The notes under the pieces were generated by a model. It was not told the origin of the DNA. It worked only from the letters and a program-made list of their open reading frames with translations, and searched no databases. The position numbers and the translations under genes were made by a program. From the NCBI GenBank assembly GCA_017629275.1, contig JAGBXM010000123.1, positions 1 to 33,249 on the forward strand: 33,249 nucleotides of DNA, written 5' to 3'. Shown piece by piece: positions 599 through 28,056 of this stretch. How positions within the stretch are numbered: position 1 is the stretch's first letter; each line of letters opens with the position of its first letter. This DNA comes from Clostridia bacterium (GTDB lineage: Bacteria; Bacillota; Clostridia; Oscillospirales; Acutalibacteraceae).

Positions 599-2494
599 AT
601 GGACTTGAAAAACCTTGAAAATTTTCTCAACGGCACCGAGACACGCGCCTACCAAATTTTGGGACACCATTTCGAAAACGGTAAATCGGTTTTCAGAGTG
701 TGGGCTCCCAACGCAAAAGAGGTACATTTAGTCGGCGACTTTTGCGATTGGCAACCGGGGCAGTTTAAGATGCTTCATATCGGCGGCGGAATTTTTGAAG
801 GCATCCTTAACACCTTACCCGAATATACCTTGTACAAATATCATATTGTATCAAAAGACGGTACAACTTGTTTTAAAAGCGACCCATTTGCCTACCACTT
901 TGAAACAGCACCTGGCAATGCCTCCAAAACCTATGATATTGAGGGTTACTTGTGGCACGACGAAAAATGGATGGCCGAAAAGTCAAACCCATTGTCCAAG
1001 CCTGTAAATATATACGAAGTCCATTTGGGCTCGTGGCGACGATATGCCGACGGCAACTGTTTTGACTACCGCAAGGCCGCAAACGAGCTTGTGTCTTACG
1101 TTAAATATATGGGCTACACCCATATTGAACTGTTACCCGTCACCGAATACCCGTTTGACGGCTCGTGGGGTTATCAGGTCACGGGCTACTTTGCACCGAC
1201 CTCACGCTTCGGCACCCCGAAAGACTTTATGGCCTTTGTCGACACGATGCACCAAAACGGTATCGGCGTTATTATGGATTGGGTTCCTGCCCACTTCCCC
1301 AAGGACGAATTCGGTCTTTACCGTTTCGACGGCACACACCTTTTCGAGTATGATGACCCAAGGGTCGGTGAGCATAAAGAATGGGGCACCGCCGTTTTCG
1401 ACTACGGTCGACCCGAAGTAAAAAGTTTTCTGATTTCAAGTGCTTTTCTTTGGCACGAAAAGTATCATATAGACGGTCTGCGTGTCGACGCGGTGGCATC
1501 AATGCTGTATCTCGACTACAACCGCCGCGACGGTGAATGGCGACCCAACGTTTTCGGCGGGAAAGAAAATTTAGAAGCCGTAAGCCTTATAAAACAGCTC
1601 AACACCGCCGTGTTCAAAAGTTTTCCCAATACGCTTATGATAGCCGAGGAGTCGACCGCGTGGCCGATGGTCACCGCACCTGCCGACCGTGATGGCTTAG
1701 GCTTTAATTTGAAATGGAATATGGGTTGGATGAACGATATGTTAAAATATATGTCGCTCGACCCCATCCACCGAAAGTATCACCACGGTGCATTGACCTT
1801 CTCGTTTTTCTATGCCTTTTCGGAAAACTTCCTGCTCCCGCTTTCGCACGACGATGTGGTGCACGGCAAATGTTCGATCTTTCGAAAAATGCCCGGCTAT
1901 ACGATAGACAAATTCAAAAGTGTCCGTTTGTTTTACAGTTTTATGATGGCACACCCCGGCAAAAAACTGACCTTTATGGGGTCGGAGTTTGCAACTTTAA
2001 ACGAGTGGGACTATAAAACCGAACTCGATTGGCAACTGTTGTCGCTTGAACAGCACCGAAAGACGCAGGATTTTGTGCGTGAACTCAACAAGTTTTATAA
2101 ACTGACCCCGCAACTTTTCGAAAACGACTTTTCGTGGCAAGGCTTTCGTTGGTTGTCCAACGACGACTGCAACAATAACGTCATCGCCTTTGAGCGTATG
2201 AACAAAGACGGCAAACCTCTCGTTTGCGTGTTTAACTTTTCACCCGTTTTGCAAACCGATTACCGAATAGGTCTTACGACCCACGGCGTTTATGAAATAG
2301 TCTTCGATTCCGATGAAAAGCGCTTCGGCGGTGACGGAATAATCACCGAAACCAAAATTAAGACCGAGCAAAAACCTATGCACGGACTCGGTCAATCGGC
2401 GGCCTTTACCCTGCCGCCTTTGTCGGGAATGTACCTTAAACTAAACCGTAAGCTAAAGTCCGAAAGGATTTCAACTGATAAAAAACTACCGTAA
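599..2494 (+). CDS. glgB: 1,4-alpha-glucan branching enzyme
   Basis: Cuts alpha-1,4 glucan chains and re-attaches them through alpha-1,6 bonds in cytoplasmic glycogen. The N-terminal CBM48 module lies at about residues 18-105 (motif VFRVWAPNAKEVHLVGDF). The GH13 barrel follows with all four conserved regions: DWVPAHFP near 227, GLRVDAVASM with nucleophile D297, MIAEEST with acid/base E350, and LPLSHDDVVHGK with the HD pair at 417-418. An all-beta C-terminal domain ends near 610. The 631-residue length is normal for bacterial GlgB with a short N-terminus. The ATG is preceded at proper distance by AAAAGGAG. First gene of glgB-C-D-A; the glgC ribosome binding site overlaps its stop codon, which points to one transcript. 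Confidence 0.97.
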   Translation: MDLKNLENFLNGTETRAYQILGHHFENGKSVFRVWAPNAKEVHLVGDFCDWQPGQFKMLHIGGGIFEGILNTLPEYTLYKYHIVSKDGTTCFKSDPFAYHFETAPGNASKTYDIEGYLWHDEKWMAEKSNPLSKPVNIYEVHLGSWRRYADGNCFDYRKAANELVSYVKYMGYTHIELLPVTEYPFDGSWGYQVTGYFAPTSRFGTPKDFMAFVDTMHQNGIGVIMDWVPAHFPKDEFGLYRFDGTHLFEYDDPRVGEHKEWGTAVFDYGRPEVKSFLISSAFLWHEKYHIDGLRVDAVASMLYLDYNRRDGEWRPNVFGGKENLEAVSLIKQLNTAVFKSFPNTLMIAEESTAWPMVTAPADRDGLGFNLKWNMGWMNDMLKYMSLDPIHRKYHHGALTFSFFYAFSENFLLPLSHDDVVHGKCSIFRKMPGYTIDKFKSVRLFYSFMMAHPGKKLTFMGSEFATLNEWDYKTELDWQLLSLEQHRKTQDFVRELNKFYKLTPQLFENDFSWQGFRWLSNDDCNNNVIAFERMNKDGKPLVCVFNFSPVLQTDYRIGLTTHGVYEIVFDSDEKRFGGDGIITETKIKTEQKPMHGLGQSAAFTLPPLSGMYLKLNRKLKSERISTDKKLP

Positions 2495-2507
2495 GGAGTG
2501 ACCCTAA

Positions 2508-3725
2508 TTGAAAAAGACAGAATGCGTAGCAATGCTGTTAGCAGGAGGTCAGGGCAGCCGTTTGGGTGTTCTCACACAGAACATTGCCAAACCCGCCGTT
2601 CCCTATGGCGGTAAATACCGCATTATCGACTTTCCGCTCTCCAACTGCACCAACTCGGGTATTGATACCGTCGGAGTGCTGACCCAGTATCAGCCGCTCG
2701 AGTTGAACGATTACATCGGTTCGGGTAAGCCGTGGGACCTTGACCGTTCCAACGGCGGTGTCCACATCCTGCCGCCCTATCAGAACAACAAGGGCGGAGA
2801 CTGGTATAAAGGTACCGCCAACGCAATTTATCAGAACATCCCCTTTATCAAGCGCTATGACCCCGAGTACGTGCTTATCCTCTCGGGCGACCACATCTAT
2901 AAGATGGACTACAGCCTGATGATCGAACAGCACAAGCAAACGAACGCCGACTGCACCATCGCCGTTATCGAGGTCCCGATGGAGGAAGCCTCGCGTTTCG
3001 GTATTATGAACTGCAACCCCGACGGCACCATTTACGAGTTTGAGGAGAAGCCCAAGAACCCCAAGTCTAACCTTGCTTCAATGGGTATCTACGTTTTCTC
3101 TTGGGACAAACTCAAAAAGTATCTTGAAGAAGACGAAGCCGACCCCAACTCCTCCAACGACTTCGGTAAGAACATCATCCCCAATATGTTGAACGACAAT
3201 CAGAAGATGATAGTCTACCGCTTTGCCGACTATTGGAAGGATGTCGGCACCATCGACTCTCTGTGGGAGGCCAACCTCGACCTGTTAGACCCCAAAATCA
3301 AGCTTGATCTTTCCGATCCCAAATGGAGGATCTATTCGAGAACCCCGAGTGCACCTCCGCAGTACATTTCAGACACCGCCAAGGTTCAGAACTCACTCAT
3401 TACCGAGGGTTGCGACGTTTACGGCACGGTCGATTTCTCGATTCTTTTTGACAATGTTATTGTTGAAGAAGGTGCCGTTGTTAAGGATTCTCTCGTAATG
3501 CCGGGCGCAGTTATCAAGAAGAACGCTTCGGTTCAGTATGCAATCATCGGTGAAAACGCCGTTATCGAAGAAAACGCTTCGGTCGGTGAACGTCCCGAGG
3601 ACGTAAGTGACCTTTCCAATTGGGGTGTTGCGGTCGTCGGTGCAGATCTCAACGTTGGCAAAAATGCCGACGTCAAGGCCGCCGTTATGATCAAAGAAAA
3701 CGTCAAGGAGGGTGACAAGCAATGA
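2508..3725 (+). CDS. glgC: Glucose-1-phosphate adenylyltransferase, catalytic subunit
   Basis: Makes ADP-glucose from glucose-1-phosphate and ATP, the committed step of glycogen synthesis. Residues 9-20 carry the nucleotidyltransferase loop [11 protein letters not shown], followed by the [19 protein letters not shown] block, the catalytic-site segment [10 protein letters not shown], the sugar-binding FEEKP and the DYWKDVGT motif. The C-terminal part shows the left-handed beta-helix hexapeptide pattern. The start is TTG: GTAAGGAG, overlapping the glgB stop, sits about nine bases before it, and the TTG gives the family's usual N-terminus. The end overlaps glgD by four bases (ATGA), which suggests translational coupling of the two subunits. 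Confidence 0.96.
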
Positions 3726-4840
3726 GAAAAAACAATGTTTTAGGTATCGTGTTCCCCAACGCACACGATGAACTTATGGGTGAAATGACCGAGCGCCGTT
3801 CAATGGGTTCACTTCCCTTCTGCGGACGTTACAGAATCATCGACTTCTCGCTTTCCAACCTTGTCAACGCAGGTGTTTCCAAGGTCGGTATCGTTACCAA
3901 GACCAACTACCAGTCACTTATGGACCACATCGGTTCGGCCAAGGCCTGGGACCTCGACCGTAAATCGGGCGGACTTTTCTTCCTCCCTCCCTATTCCAAT
4001 ACCGAGGCCAAGGTTTATAAGGGTCACGTGGACGGTCTTTTCGGCGCAATGAACTTTTTGAAGCATTCCTCCGAAAAATTTGTCGTTATGTGTGACTGCG
4101 ACGTTATCACCAACTTCGACCTTAACGATATGTTAAAGCGCCACATAAAGAGCGGTGCCGACATCACCATCGCTTACAAACGCGGTCTTATGCCGCTCAA
4201 CCGCCACGACGTTATGGCTTTTGAGCTTAACGGCGATAAGGTGACCGACATTAAATTCGCCGCTTCAGATTCCAAGGAGCGTTGCATCAGCCTCGACATC
4301 ACCATTATGTCGAAGGATCTTCTGACCGAAATCATTAAAGAAGGCTACGAGCGCAACCTTACAAGTATCGCACGTGACGTTTATCAGAAGAGTCTCACAA
4401 AATTGGATATCCGCGGCTATGAGATCACCGAATATGCCGCCATTATGGATAGTCCCGAGACCTATGCCAAGGTCACCAAAGAGGTCGTTTGCGACCCCGC
4501 AGTCCGTCGTGACCTGTTCTGCAAAACACGTCCCGTATTCACCAAAACCCGTGACGATATGCCGACCATCTACGGTCTCGACAGCGAGGTGAAAAACTGC
4601 CTTATTGCCGACGGTTGCGTTATCGACGGCACCGTCAAGAACTCGGTTCTGTTCAGAGGTGTAAAGGTCGAGAAGGGCGCCGTTATTGAGAACAGTATCG
4701 TTATGCAGGACGCAGTTATCGAAGCAGGTGCAGACATTCAGTTCGTCACCCTCGACAAGAAGGTCACGGTCGGCGCCAACAAGACGTTGCGCGGCACCGA
4801 AACCTATCCCATCTACGTCCGCAAAAACGCAGAGGTTTGA
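3722..4840 (+). CDS. glgD: GlgD, regulatory-type ADP-glucose pyrophosphorylase subunit
   Basis: Paralogue of GlgC that in Bacillota partners with GlgC and raises its activity. The fold is kept ([18 protein letters not shown], the WDLDRKSGG stretch, C-terminal beta-helix repeats), but the N-terminal nucleotide loop GGxGxRL of GlgC is replaced by [17 protein letters not shown], and the family's catalytic-site segment reads [10 protein letters not shown]. This fits a non-catalytic or weakly catalytic subunit, as known for GlgD. The ATG lies within the glgC stop region (ATGA overlap). A perfect 16-bp palindrome separates it from glgA. Confidence 0.93.
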
Positions 4841-4877: not shown

Positions 4878-6299
4878 ATGAAAGTTTTATATGCCACAAG
4901 TGAAGCCTACCCGTTCGCTATGTCGGGTGGCCTGGCCGATGTAGCAGGCGCACTCCCCAAAGCACTGAGAAAGCGCCTCATCGGTTGCCGTGTCGTTCTT
5001 CCCTTGTACGACTCCATAAGCGAGGAGCTCAGACAGGAAATGCAGTTCATCACCAGCATTACCGTACCCGTCGCCTGGAGAAGACAGTATTGCGGCATTT
5101 TTGAAGCAAAAAAAGACGGTGTCATCTACTACTTTATCGACAATCAGTATTACTTCAAGCGCAACGGCCTTTACGGTCATTACGACGACGCCGAAAGATT
5201 TGCATTTTTCTCACGCGCCGTGCTTGAAATGATACCCCACATTGATTTTGTGCCCGACATCATCCACTGTAACGACTGGCAGACGGCACTCATCCCCGTT
5301 TTCCTGGATACCTTATACCGTATGGTCGACGTTTATAAGAACATAAAAACGGTATTCACCATTCATAACATTCAGTATCAGGGCAAATACGGCACCGAGC
5401 TTATCGAGGACGTTTTGGGACTTCCCAAAGAGTATTCACACCTTGTTGAATACGACCGCTGTGTCAACCTTATGAAGGGCGGTATCGAATGTGCCGACCG
5501 CGTCACCACCGTCAGCCCGACCTACGCCACCGAGATAAAAGACCCGTGGTTTGCCCACGGACTTGACAGCATCATCCGTGAGCGCGAGTTTAAACTCAAC
5601 GGCATCGTCAACGGTATCGACGTTGAGGTATACGACCCCGAAAAAGACAGTCACCTTTGGGCCAATTACACCGCCGACGATCTCAAAGGCAAGGCCATAA
5701 ACAAGGCCGAACTGCAAAAGCTTTGCGGTCTGCCCGAGCGTCCCGACGTTCCCATCATCGGTATGGTCACACGTCTTGTCACCCACAAAGGTCTCGACCT
5801 TGTCAAATTTGTCTTTGACAGTATCATTTCAAAGGACGTTCAGGTCGTTATTCTGGGTAGCGGCGAATGGGAGTTTGAAACCTACTTCCACTCACAGATG
5901 TCGGCTCACCCCGATAAGGTGGCCTTAAAGCTCGGCTTTATTCCCGACCTCGCCCATAAAATCTATGCAGGTGCCGATATGTTCCTCATGCCCTCCAAGA
6001 GTGAGCCTTGCGGATTGGCGCAGATGATCGCTTTGAGATACGGCACCATTCCGATAGTCCGTGAGACCGGCGGTCTTAAGGACACCGTCACCGACAGCGG
6101 TGATAATATGGGTAACGGCTTTACCTTCCAGGCCTACAACGCACACGATATGGCACGTGCCGTTGAACGAGCCGTTGAAGGCTACTCGGTAACCGACGGT
6201 TGGCAGACCTTGGTAAAACGTGCAATGGCCTGCGACAACAGTTGGGGCAAATCAGCCGGTGTTTATATTAAGATGTATAAAGAAATCTTAGGCAAATAA
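4878..6299 (+). CDS. glgA: Glycogen synthase (ADP-glucose type, GT5)
   Basis: Adds glucose from ADP-glucose to the non-reducing ends of glycogen. Recognised as GT5 by the N-terminal SGGLADVAGALPKAL block (residues 16-30), HCNDWQTALIP, TIHNIQYQGKYG, NGIDVEVYDP, the GMVTRLVTHKGLDL start of the second Rossmann domain, and the C-terminal KSEPCGLAQMIALRYGTIPIVRETGGL donor-site region. The 473-residue length is typical. One deviation: the lysine of the KTGGL/KSGGL motif is methionine (M15). Last gene of the glg operon; GGAG lies seven bases before the ATG and a strong terminator follows. Confidence 0.96.
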   Translation: MKVLYATSEAYPFAMSGGLADVAGALPKALRKRLIGCRVVLPLYDSISEELRQEMQFITSITVPVAWRRQYCGIFEAKKDGVIYYFIDNQYYFKRNGLYGHYDDAERFAFFSRAVLEMIPHIDFVPDIIHCNDWQTALIPVFLDTLYRMVDVYKNIKTVFTIHNIQYQGKYGTELIEDVLGLPKEYSHLVEYDRCVNLMKGGIECADRVTTVSPTYATEIKDPWFAHGLDSIIREREFKLNGIVNGIDVEVYDPEKDSHLWANYTADDLKGKAINKAELQKLCGLPERPDVPIIGMVTRLVTHKGLDLVKFVFDSIISKDVQVVILGSGEWEFETYFHSQMSAHPDKVALKLGFIPDLAHKIYAGADMFLMPSKSEPCGLAQMIALRYGTIPIVRETGGLKDTVTDSGDNMGNGFTFQAYNAHDMARAVERAVEGYSVTDGWQTLVKRAMACDNSWGKSAGVYIKMYKEILGK

Positions 6300-24119: not shown

Positions 24120-27100
24120 TTAAAAGAGTGTCATTTGGTTGGTGTCGGGCAAAAAGCTTAAAGCACCGATGGCCTTGAGCTTTTCGATAACCGTTTTGGA
24201 AACGCCCGACTCAATACGCAGATCGTCAATCGACATAAAATTGCCCTCGTCGACGACCTTCTGAATATCGGCGGCGGCCTTTTCACCGACACCGGGCAGA
24301 ACTCCTATGGGCAAACGCATATTGCCGTCCTCAACCAAAAACTTTCTTGAGTGCGATTTTCGAAGGTCAATGGGCAGAACCTTAATGCCTCTCGACATCA
24401 TTTCGTTAAAGATAAGCAGGTTGTCAAGTACACCCTTGTCCTTAACACTTGCGGCGTTACCCAACAGCTTAATATCATTGATACGCTTCTGAACGGCGCT
24501 CTGGCCCTGCAACAAGGTATCAACCTCAATATCCTCCGCACGTACCGTAAAGTATGCACAGTAGAACTCGACGGGCCTATGAACCTTGTACCAGCCAAGC
24601 CTCAGCGCCGCGATCATATAAGCCGCCGCGTGAGCCTTCGGGAACATATACTTAATCTTATAGCAGGAATCAATATACCATTCAGGTACATTGTTGTCCT
24701 TCATTGCCTGAATATGCTCTTCGGTCAACTGCTTTTTAGCCTTACCCTTACGCACAATCTCCATTATCTTAAAGGCCATCTTCTTGGGGACGCCTTTATA
24801 AATAAGGTAGGTCATAATGTTGTCACGGGTTCCGATGACCTCAGAAATGGTACAGGTCTTGTTCTTGATAAGCTCCTGCGCATTACCGATCCAAACGTCG
24901 GTACCGTGCGACAGACCCGATATCTGCAAAAGGTCAGAGAAGGTCTTGGGCTTAGACTCGACCAACATATCACGGACAAACTTGGTACCCAATTCAGGCA
25001 ACGCATAGGTGCCCGTTTTGGAGAATATCTGCGCCTCGGTAACACCCAACGCATCGGGCGACAAAAAGAGGCTCATAACATCGGGGTCACTCATCGAAAC
25101 GTTAAGAACGGGAATGCCCGAATACTCCTCAAGATACTTGTAAATGGTCGGCACATCGTGTCCGAGTTCGTCAAGCTTCAGGATATTATCGTGAATCTTA
25201 TGGAAATCGAAATGGGTGGTAACCATATCAGAGTCGACCTTGTCGGCAGGGTGCTGAACGGGACAGAAGTCATAGACCTCTTTGTCTCGCGGAACAACGA
25301 CCATACCGCCGGGATGCTGACCCGTGGTACGCTTGACCGCTGCATTGTTTATGGCGGCAGCAAGACGCGCCTCCTCAGCCTTATTCATTGTAATGCCGTA
25401 ATCGTTGGCATAGCCCTTAACGTAACCGAAAGCCGTCTTTTCGGCAACGGTAGCGATAGTACCTGCCTTGAAAACGTTTTCGGGGCCAAACAGTTCTTCG
25501 GTATATTTATGGACAAAAGGCTGAACCTCGCCCGAGAAGTTCTGATCAATATCGGGAACCTTATCTCCGTCGAAGCCCAAGAAGGTTTCGAACGGAATAT
25601 CGTGTCCGTCGCGGTTATAATCCTCACCGCATTCGGGACACTTTTTAGGCGGCAGGTCAAATCCCGAACCGACGCTGCCGTCGGTAATAAACTCGGAATG
25701 CTTACACTTGGGGCAAACGTAATGCGGCACCAAGGGGTTAACCTCCGAAATACCGTTCATGGTTGCGGCAAATGACGAACCGACCGAACCACGGGAACCG
25801 ACTAAATATCCCTTACTTTCGGAATATTCAACCAGTTTCTGCGCCGTAACGTACATAACCGAGAAGCCGTGACGGATGATAGAATCCAACTCACGTTCTA
25901 GTCGTTCTTTAACAACGTCGGGCAACGGATCACCGTAAATTTCGTGCGCTCTGCGATAGCATTTTTCGGTCAGAATATCATCCGAGCCTTCAATTTTCGG
26001 CGGATAGTTTCCGCTGGGCACCGCACGGACGTTACTGTCAACCATATCGGCTATTCTTTGCGGGTTGCCGATAACAACATCGTAAGCGCGGTCACCGAGA
26101 TACGAAAACTCCTCCAACATCTCATTGGTGGTTTTAAGATACAAAGGTGCCTGAAGTTCGGCATCATCAAAGCCCTGACCTGCCATAAGAATGGTACGGA
26201 GTCTTGCATCTTCGGGATCAAGGAAGTGAACGTCACCTGTAGCCACTACCGGTTTGCCGAGTTCATCGGCCAAAGCCACGATTTTGCGGTTGATATCAAG
26301 AATCTGCTCCATCGAATTAAACAAAGCAGGCTCAACCTCACCCGTCTTCTTATTGACCTTTTCTCGCAACATAAACTCATTGTTTCCGCGAGGCTGAATT
26401 TCAAGATAATCGTAAAACGAAGCCAACTTCACAAGCTCATCGTGCGGCCTGTTTTCCAAAATAGCGCGGTAAATTTCACCCTGCTCACAGGCACTGCCGA
26501 TAATAAGACCTTCGCGGTACTGCTCAAGTACGCTTTTGGGAATAAGCGGTCTTGCGGGACGGGGTTTGGCAGGATTTTTCGCATTATACGTCTTAAGATA
26601 ATATTTAAGATTTGAATATGAAATAAGACGGTAAAGATTTTTAAGACCGGCCTGGTCTTTGACAAGAATAATCTGGTGATAACGGGTCAACGTTTCGGAA
26701 TTAACACCGCCGTCGATACCGCCCGAGAGCTCCTGGAAATCAATATCGTTGACAAAATAACTCTCAACACCATAGATAACCTTAAAATCGGCACCCTCGT
26801 TGTCACCCATAATTTCATCGTAGGCACTCATCGCATCGGGGAAGGCCTGAACAACACCGTGGTCGGTGATGGCAACCGCCTTGTGACCCCACTTAAACGC
26901 ACGTTTCACAACGTCCTGAACGGGTGCAACGGCGTCCATCTGTGACATACTTGTGTGCAGGTGCAGTTCTATTCTCTTTTCCTCGGCATCGTCGGTTTTA
27001 ACACCTTTTTTCTTGACGGTGGCGATTCCGTCGGGTTCGAGGCAGTAATCCTTTTCCCATTCGTCCATCTGATATTTGCCGTGAACAACAACGCACTTAC

Positions 27101-28034
27101 CCTTTTTCAGTTCGTCGTTCAACACGTCAAACATATGGTTGCCGACCATCATTTTTACGGTAATGGAATTGGTTCCGTCATATATCTGGAACTTGACTCG
27201 GTAACCGCGGCCGCTCTTGGTGGCAACGATCTCGGAAAAGAATATCTCACCCCATACAAGACTTTCATCCTCATCGGGCGAAATGTTTTCAAGCTTTGTC
27301 AAAGCGCCGTGAATCTTTCTCTGACCGTAGATCTGCAAAATACTGTCCTCAACGATAGGCACATTGTCGGGAATAAGCAGACCCGTAACCTTTTTAGGTT
27401 CGGGCGGTTTGGTCTCACGTCGTCTGAAACTGCCGCCATTGTTACCCCCGTCATAAGAATAGTTGGGTTTCGACTCCTGATAGGTCTGCTTGACCTCTTT
27501 TATCGGCTCCTGCTTGTATTCGGGAATAATACCTTCGGGTTCCTCAAGTTGTCCGTCAAACTGAACGTCGGTCACGATACCGAAACGGTAGTTTGCAATA
27601 CCACAAAATTCTCTTTCAAAATTGCATTCCTGAATGGTTTTATATCCGCCGTATTTTAACGTAATATACGTTGCGTATCTGTCCTGGTTCTCATCCACCA
27701 ACTGAACGTTAAATTCCGCACCGTTAAAATAACCGTTGAACATCGCATTGGTGGCGCGGAGCATCATTGCTATATCCTCAGCCGCCTCGGCGCAGTAACA
27801 TCTCTTCTGATACTTCGAATCAATATGTACGGCGTTCATTCGAAGTCCTTCGGCTATCGAAACACGTACTTTGTCGAGTTCCTCGCTTGACACGTATTCA
27901 CTGAATAAACAAGTTGCAAGTATCTCACGGGCATCACTGTCGATCTCGCAACGCTGCAAGATACAATTCTTAACAGCGTCGGGTGCATTTTCAATAAACC
28001 GTCCGAAAATATCATTTAATTTCGGCAATCCCAT
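24120..28034 (-). CDS. polC: DNA polymerase III alpha subunit, PolC type, lacking the exonuclease insert
   Basis: Replicative polymerase of Gram-positive bacteria. In order: N-terminal domain to about 170, an acidic/Q-rich linker, an OB fold at about 235-345, the first half of the PHP domain (LHLHTSMSQMDAV at about 357-369, ITDHGVVQAF, KVIYGVESYF ending near 427), its second half (RYHQIILVKDQAGLKNLYRL from about 451; TGDVHFLDPED), the polymerase core with zinc pairs CPKC/CPEC, catalytic PDID at about 827-830, THFDFHKIHDN and the LDELGHD aspartate, then SHGTDVWIGNAQELI and the C-terminal QMTLF. The DEDDh exonuclease normally inside PHP, with its FDxETTG motif, is absent and replaced by about 25 residues. 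Length is 1304 against about 1440 for B. subtilis. The ATG has AGGAGAG at good distance; a TTG two codons earlier is too close to it. Confidence 0.95.
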   Translation of the reverse strand: MGLPKLNDIFGRFIENAPDAVKNCILQRCEIDSDAREILATCLFSEYVSSEELDKVRVSIAEGLRMNAVHIDSKYQKRCYCAEAAEDIAMMLRATNAMFNGYFNGAEFNVQLVDENQDRYATYITLKYGGYKTIQECNFEREFCGIANYRFGIVTDVQFDGQLEEPEGIIPEYKQEPIKEVKQTYQESKPNYSYDGGNNGGSFRRRETKPPEPKKVTGLLIPDNVPIVEDSILQIYGQRKIHGALTKLENISPDEDESLVWGEIFFSEIVATKSGRGYRVKFQIYDGTNSITVKMMVGNHMFDVLNDELKKGKCVVVHGKYQMDEWEKDYCLEPDGIATVKKKGVKTDDAEEKRIELHLHTSMSQMDAVAPVQDVVKRAFKWGHKAVAITDHGVVQAFPDAMSAYDEIMGDNEGADFKVIYGVESYFVNDIDFQELSGGIDGGVNSETLTRYHQIILVKDQAGLKNLYRLISYSNLKYYLKTYNAKNPAKPRPARPLIPKSVLEQYREGLIIGSACEQGEIYRAILENRPHDELVKLASFYDYLEIQPRGNNEFMLREKVNKKTGEVEPALFNSMEQILDINRKIVALADELGKPVVATGDVHFLDPEDARLRTILMAGQGFDDAELQAPLYLKTTNEMLEEFSYLGDRAYDVVIGNPQRIADMVDSNVRAVPSGNYPPKIEGSDDILTEKCYRRAHEIYGDPLPDVVKERLERELDSIIRHGFSVMYVTAQKLVEYSESKGYLVGSRGSVGSSFAATMNGISEVNPLVPHYVCPKCKHSEFITDGSVGSGFDLPPKKCPECGEDYNRDGHDIPFETFLGFDGDKVPDIDQNFSGEVQPFVHKYTEELFGPENVFKAGTIATVAEKTAFGYVKGYANDYGITMNKAEEARLAAAINNAAVKRTTGQHPGGMVVVPRDKEVYDFCPVQHPADKVDSDMVTTHFDFHKIHDNILKLDELGHDVPTIYKYLEEYSGIPVLNVSMSDPDVMSLFLSPDALGVTEAQIFSKTGTYALPELGTKFVRDMLVESKPKTFSDLLQISGLSHGTDVWIGNAQELIKNKTCTISEVIGTRDNIMTYLIYKGVPKKMAFKIMEIVRKGKAKKQLTEEHIQAMKDNNVPEWYIDSCYKIKYMFPKAHAAAYMIAALRLGWYKVHRPVEFYCAYFTVRAEDIEVDTLLQGQSAVQKRINDIKLLGNAASVKDKGVLDNLLIFNEMMSRGIKVLPIDLRKSHSRKFLVEDGNMRLPIGVLPGVGEKAAADIQKVVDEGNFMSIDDLRIESGVSKTVIEKLKAIGALSFLPDTNQMTLF

Positions 28035-28056
28035 TTTCAACTCTCCTATTATTTTA

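Follow-up and report, generated by a model that had tools for sequence, protein, structure and literature searches.

PolC enzymes without a proofreading exonuclease have been described. In the part of PMC3919608 available to us, 6% of PolCs are without Exo, all but one of them in Clostridia and Negativicutes, and the exo-less enzymes account for 16% of PolC plus DnaE1 systems. Most Clostridia have three active proofreaders according to the excerpt of PMC12926913 consulted, and bacteria with PolC plus DnaE3 typically rely on the DnaQ domain of PolC. Mycobacterial DnaE1 is among the enzymes with an active nine-residue PHP site; Geobacillus PolC, in which one PHP ligand is changed, has no PHP exonuclease activity (PMC5636811, in excerpt). 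The QMTLF-type motif of PolC is a clamp binder (PMC3919608).

Domain organization of the window PolC

The stretch of DNA analyzed here, referred to as the window, comprises 33,249 nucleotides of a genome from a Clostridia bacterium and encodes a PolC whose features are collected in Table 1. The gene begins with TTG, an ATG lying two codons further in, and its product passes both PolC equivalog models, NF001688 at 1404 bits (cut-off 873) and TIGR01405 at 1286 bits (cut-off 1043). A Pfam scan recovers PHP as a single stretch (358-542) followed by DNA_pol3_alpha, finger, and HHH_6; the N-terminal region is assigned by alignment, with no domain model behind it. Two of the three catalytic aspartates of the polymerase, those of PDIDxN, are located in the protein, as are the zinc-module cysteines.

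Table 1 Features of the polC gene in the window
Feature	Position	Strand	Basis
polC, PolC-type DNA polymerase III without DEDDh exonuclease	24120..28040	-	ORF open for 1306 codons
N-terminal region and OB domain, residues 1-340, limits approximate	27021..28040	-	alignment with 3f2b from residue 248
PHP first half, residues 358-429; ligands H360, H362, D369, H394, E426	26754..26969	-	Pfam PHP, nine-site read-out
23-residue junction, residues 430-452, at the DEDDh site of exo+ PolCs	26685..26753	-	comparison with relatives
PHP second half, from residue 453; ligands H455, C518, D603, H605	26223..26684	-	Pfam PHP, nine-site read-out
Polymerase, DNA_pol3_alpha best stretch, residues 689-873; zinc-module cysteines and PDIDQN	25422..25976	-	Pfam
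Finger domain, residues 975-1116	24693..25118	-	Pfam
Helix-hairpin-helix domain, residues 1218-1298	24147..24389	-	Pfam (HHH_6)
Clamp-binding-like C-terminal motif QMTLF	24123..24137	-	sequence read-out

The two halves of the PHP domain are joined by a short linker. Between KVIYGVESYF (420-429) and RYHQIILVKDQAG (453-465) lie 23 residues, VNDIDFQELSGGIDGGVNSETLT (window 26685-26753), against a spacing of 207-208 residues in the four exonuclease-bearing (exo+) relatives compared. The initial annotation, which had described a missing exonuclease with about 25 residues in its place at 26680..26755, was accurate on both counts. It had also reported no DEDDh motif elsewhere in the protein; the whole protein indeed contains neither ETTG nor a D-x-E-[T/W] string, and the Pfam scan detects no RNase_T at E <= 0.001, the HMM search that the annotation had proposed. 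These two checks reject the idea of a DEDDh domain hidden in another part of the window PolC. The best stretch against NF001688 begins at profile position 599, and exonuclease-less (exo-) relatives match the profile from about 22 to 408 and then from about 604, so that some 190 profile positions are missing. The alignment of the window PolC with 3f2b is a single stretch that begins at residue 248 and runs to the C-terminal end; with the full-length PolC of 9qpc only two separate stretches align.

The same deletion point, which the annotation had suggested looking for in relatives, is common to three other records, L037, L038, and L040, with junctions of 23, 22, and 23 residues and best-segment identities to the window PolC of 79%, 70%, and 73%. 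Within the family sample, G004 and G139 belong to the window's genus; their PolCs are identical to L040 and L038, and they are not counted as extra witnesses. Because these records come from other assemblies, the missing domain is not an assembly error. The genome is in 154 contigs, which would leave room for an exonuclease segment dropped from the contig, but the shared junction, together with the many more relatives that lack the domain, each with its own junction, brings the probability of such an artefact close to nil. Comparison with L040 (dN 0.20, dS 2.3) and L038 (dN 0.23, dS 1.7), with dS near saturation, places dN far below dS, and the window polC is thus under purifying selection; with the frame open as well, decay of the gene is rejected. 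The absence of the DEDDh domain from the PolC of this gut bacterium is therefore confirmed as real and clean. The annotation's picture of a continuous frame with the rest of PolC intact, and of clean domain loss rather than decay, holds: PHP ligands, two polymerase aspartates, and zinc cysteines are all present, and the gene is under purifying selection.

Distribution and repeated loss of the exonuclease

In the family sample of 150 genomes, tallied by the pattern of NF001688 matches, 42 have an exo- PolC and 86 an exo+ PolC (10 of the latter on broken contigs), two carry a dead remnant, 18 are without PolC (10 of them less than 90% complete), and two are unclear. The class sample has PolC over the cut-off in 138 of 147 genomes, and the 27 with an exo- pattern are spread over 11 families, the window's included. 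Twelve of the class sequences were read: one has an exonuclease and 11 have none that is recognizable, three of these carrying an insert of 156-342 aa of unclear origin. Among 119 genomes of the phylum sample that are at least 95% complete, PolC exceeds the cut-off in 91, comprising 56 exo- (among them the window's own genome and G358, whose PolC is split over contigs) and 35 exo+, and 28 have none; all 17 phylum PolCs read individually are in line with their match pattern. Exo-less PolCs are thus common in the phylum and, in the available text of PMC3919608, already reported, which goes beyond what the initial annotation knew. Median genome size is 1.8 Mb for exo- and 2.2 Mb for exo+ genomes (36 and 57 genomes, all with a completeness of 90% or more; p 0.0012, uncorrected for kinship). 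Two genomes, G146 and G073, hold second, shorter PolC-like copies beside the main PolC (L160 and L161, frames of 843 and 794 aa).

The exonuclease site is not always empty. In two PolCs of one genus, L135 (G146) and L159 (G016), the PHP domain holds a remnant of 176-180 aa that matches the PolC exonuclease profile at 82 and 69 bits and is without FDxE and the third-motif histidine, a dead exonuclease retained in place. L357 and L358 of family f40 carry inserts of 342 and 322 aa at the same site, mutually 53% identical, and L353 of family f37 carries one of 156 aa, none with a recognizable exonuclease; to the exonuclease these inserts show a weak colinear match of 29 columns at its start only. 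Stand-alone proteins of 192 and 205 aa (L383 in G333, L384 in G366) score 193 and 198 bits against the PolC exonuclease profile. Both come from genomes of the phylum sample whose PolC is without the exonuclease domain, and they are possibly freed PolC exonucleases.

Trees of the polymerase and of its partner both scatter the exo- state. A PolC core tree of 117 rows was built without the exonuclease columns, the two second copies (L160, L161), and L187_3, which is short; the exo- label has to change 16 times on it, with 12 of these changes forced by starred branches. The DnaE1 tree has 74 rows (34 exo-, 30 exo+, two dead, and eight without PolC; G139, with its interrupted dnaE1, left out), taken from a DnaE search set of 80 family genomes, and gives 14 changes, 11 forced, or 13 changes with exo- against exo+ rows alone. 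A 40-row mixture-model PolC tree, its rows hand-picked from the larger PolC tree, gives 10 changes, eight forced, and rejects a single clade of exo- rows at p-AU 1.6e-51; the same value rejects a scenario in which the family lost the domain only once. Junctions of exo- PolCs vary in sequence and in length, from 13 to 34 residues (identical PolCs and L187_4 removed, 192 to 181 rows).

Counts of changes alone cannot separate gain from loss, and the polarity argument is limited to the family; the deep phylum polarity analysis leaves out L120_0. Among 61 exo+ rows, distances computed from the exonuclease track those from the core (Mantel r 0.77, 0 of 999), and this agreement, with the two dead remnants, speaks for loss and against gain inside the family. 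For the window's family, the exo- state is best read as the outcome of repeated loss. A single origin for the window genus and the neighboring exo- clade appears in 0% of 200 bootstrap trees for the PolC core (p-AU 0.073) and in 2% for DnaE1 (p-AU 0.28), which favors a loss in the window genus separate from that of its neighbor.

The PHP site, rival proofreaders, and the DnaE1 partner

With the DEDDh domain gone, the PHP domain would be the remaining candidate proofreader inside the window PolC. Its nine ligands are complete (H360, H362, D369, H394, E426, H455, C518, D603, and H605, or HHDHEHCDH) and agree with the nine-ligand pattern HHDHEH[C/H]DH; in the alignment with 3f2b the window PolC reads TGDVHF where Geobacillus PolC reads TGNVHY. 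A read-out over 238 distinct PolCs, five of them unreadable, finds the ligands complete in 73 of 73 exo- PolCs, in 5 of 5 with non-catalytic inserts, and in 151 of 155 exo+ PolCs; the readable family and named exo- rows keep them in 53 of 53 cases. Intact sites are therefore about equally conserved with and without the exonuclease (78/78 versus 151/155, Fisher p 0.30), and this conservation fits a takeover of proofreading by PHP without discriminating it.

The window's genome also encodes a DnaE with a 1167-aa frame that exceeds the TIGR00594 cut-off and co-occurs with the exo-less PolC. Its PHP ligands are complete as well, and on the PHP site and lineage the partner would be DnaE1 rather than DnaE3. 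For DnaE1, the full set of PHP ligands is seen in 31 of the 33 rows that could be read for exo- genomes and in 30 of 30 for exo+ genomes. Several partner genes depart from this form. In G139, of the same genus, dnaE1 is split by a group II intron (L345:1711-5121), identified from two Rfam matches (1765-2016, 5056-5151) and from an ORF at 2477-4342 for a reverse transcriptase of 621 aa. The DnaE of G022 (L344) evolves fast and its PHP site is broken (HHNDERYNY); the exo- PolC of that genome has a complete PHP site. In four of 80 genomes, G041, G067, G033, and G009 (93-99% complete), no DnaE exceeds the TIGR00594 cut-off, where assembly gaps are possible.

We propose that the PHP site of the window PolC excises mismatched primer ends, as PHP-proofreading DnaE1s do, and that the partner DnaE1 adds a second complete PHP site. 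Two intact PHP sites would make the DEDDh domain redundant in a PolC plus DnaE1 system, and this redundancy would account for its repeated loss. Taken as one explanation, it is probable that the window enzyme is a functional polymerase minus the DEDDh domain embedded in the PHP loop, and that its intact PHP site proofreads and renders that domain dispensable. The wider generalization is more tentative, and we put it somewhat short of an even prospect: that, wherever PolC and DnaE1 both have intact PHP sites, DEDDh serves as a second proofreader that the cell can do without, that one family lost it some ten or more times and in places passed through catalytically dead forms on the way, and that much of the phylum has PHP as the only proofreading site inside its replicases.

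The initial annotation had named a separate DnaQ-like protein, the PHP domain, and a higher mutation rate as ways in which the cell could manage. Surveys of RNase_T, MutS1, and KapD-like genes cover 80 of the 150 family genomes, 44 with an absent or dead exonuclease and 36 exo+. A separate DEDDh exonuclease that proofreads for PolC in trans would, in the window's own genome, have to be the 296-aa KapD-like protein L001, the single other RNase_T match of the genome-wide profile search, which the annotation had also suggested running. The D-x-E and H...D motifs of L001 seem present by eye, but it falls below the model cut-offs (26.5 versus 71.5 for TIGR00573, dnaQ; 60.5 versus 169 for KapD), and no RNase_T match of this genome exceeds either. 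KapD-like genes, with frames of 280-340 aa, occur in 32 of the 44 genomes lacking a working exonuclease, and so are missing from 12, and in 30 of the 36 exo+ genomes, where matches of about 300 aa reach 77 bits. Being as common in exo+ genomes, the gene does not track exonuclease loss, and it is rejected as a compensator that does.

Other DnaQ-like proteins, apart from Cas2 fusions, are of several types and occur in seven of the 44 genomes; the 36 exo+ genomes have one unread candidate that is not KapD-like, a 280-aa RNase_T match in G106. The difference, 7/44 against up to 1/36 (Fisher p 0.07, uncorrected for kinship), makes a separate proofreader possible in some lineages, as do the 192- and 205-aa proteins of the two phylum genomes with exo- PolC described above. 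At the survey's sensitivity, 11 of the 44 genomes have no RNase_T match at all, and across the 80 family genomes the RNase_T survey reveals no general replacement gene that tracks the loss. Proofreading of PolC in trans by such an exonuclease is, on balance, improbable. G148 has a weak RNase_T match in a frame of 532 aa, which a search with the PolC-exonuclease profile does not recover. Fusions of Cas2 to a DnaQ-like exonuclease occur in two further genomes of the 44, L258 (G047) and L260 (G146), and are taken as part of CRISPR, not as replication proofreaders.

MutS1 exceeds its cut-off in 77 of the 80 genomes, the window's own included, the exceptions being G006 (a partial match of 563 bits), G086, and G033. 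A cell without effective PolC proofreading could thus lean on mismatch repair and tolerate a raised mutation rate. MutS1 is just as present in exo+ genomes, however, and complete PHP ligands run contrary to relaxed proofreading, so that we regard this alternative as very improbable. Among the three ways named by the annotation, proofreading by PHP appears the best fit, given its complete metal site, a sole other RNase_T protein that does not track the loss, and the presence of MutS1.

A different account would demote PolC itself, with DnaE1 carrying out the bulk of replication and proofreading through its own PHP site, and PolC needing no proofreader and heading for loss. Two queries find no PolC in eight family genomes with a completeness of 90% or more, and seven of these genomes form one clade in the DnaE1 tree. 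The dxr-rseP-ispG genes and cdsA stand intact without a neighboring polC in six of six contexts (L360-L365, from G076, G043, G080, G044, G008, and G056; G108, with ispG at a contig end, and G037, with no ispG match, are left out), unlike the control G002, where polC sits beside ispG. These intact contexts support the view that DnaE1 could replicate alone in this family. The 28 phylum genomes without PolC over the cut-off point the same way, and the possibility is discussed in the available part of PMC3919608. Against it, the window PolC is under purifying selection and keeps its polymerase aspartates, its PHP ligands, and the C-terminal QMTLF, and the exo- state is not one of decay, with the PHP ligands kept in all 53 readable exo- rows. 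Demotion of PolC is therefore unlikely here, and proofreading by the PHP site remains the reading we prefer.

Comparison with described PolC and DnaE1 enzymes

Should PHP alone proofread, sister species with and without the exonuclease would form natural pairs for each proofreader's share of the mutation rate, and would offer a way into the division of work in the unstudied PolC plus DnaE1 replication system. The finding is relevant, too, to surveys in which PolC is recognized by its exonuclease. In the excerpt of PMC11963600, an ibezapolstat study, sequences had to have RNase_T inserted in PHP, and 620 of 1,158 were kept; such a filter would omit exo-less PolCs such as the one in the window. 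Within the open-licence literature, which leaves supplements and most subscription papers outside and is weak evidence of absence, we found no description of the PolC exonuclease being lost repeatedly or persisting as a dead remnant; the open-licence literature searched likewise yielded no exonuclease assay of a natural exo-less PolC.

The family and the order of the other domains of the window PolC are the same as in the Bacillus and Enterococcus enzymes (9qpc; PMC12592400, in part), which differ in having the DEDDh exonuclease inside PHP. In the Geobacillus kaustophilus construct 3f2b, PHP is joined across the exonuclease site, as it is here. There, however, the exonuclease was removed by engineering for crystallization and one PHP ligand is changed (PMC12592400 and PMC3656037, as far as available), whereas in the window PolC the absence is natural and all nine ligands are complete. 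The ligand set of five His, three acids, and one Cys is common to the window PolC and Mycobacterium DnaE1 (available text of PMC5636811); that enzyme is a DnaE1 with demonstrated PHP proofreading activity, and for the window PolC the activity is inferred. The closest match is the exo-less PolC of PMC3919608, which, in the portion of that paper available, is alike in having PHP uninterrupted by Exo, a DnaE1 partner, and a home in Clostridia. The host group fits this variant, the nearest named relatives being titled Clostridia and Oscillospiraceae bacteria, and we see no difference in kind, the exo- shares being higher in the present samples. The window PolC is a further example of this recorded form, and its interest lies mainly in the recurrence of the loss and in the PHP-only proofreading that it implies.
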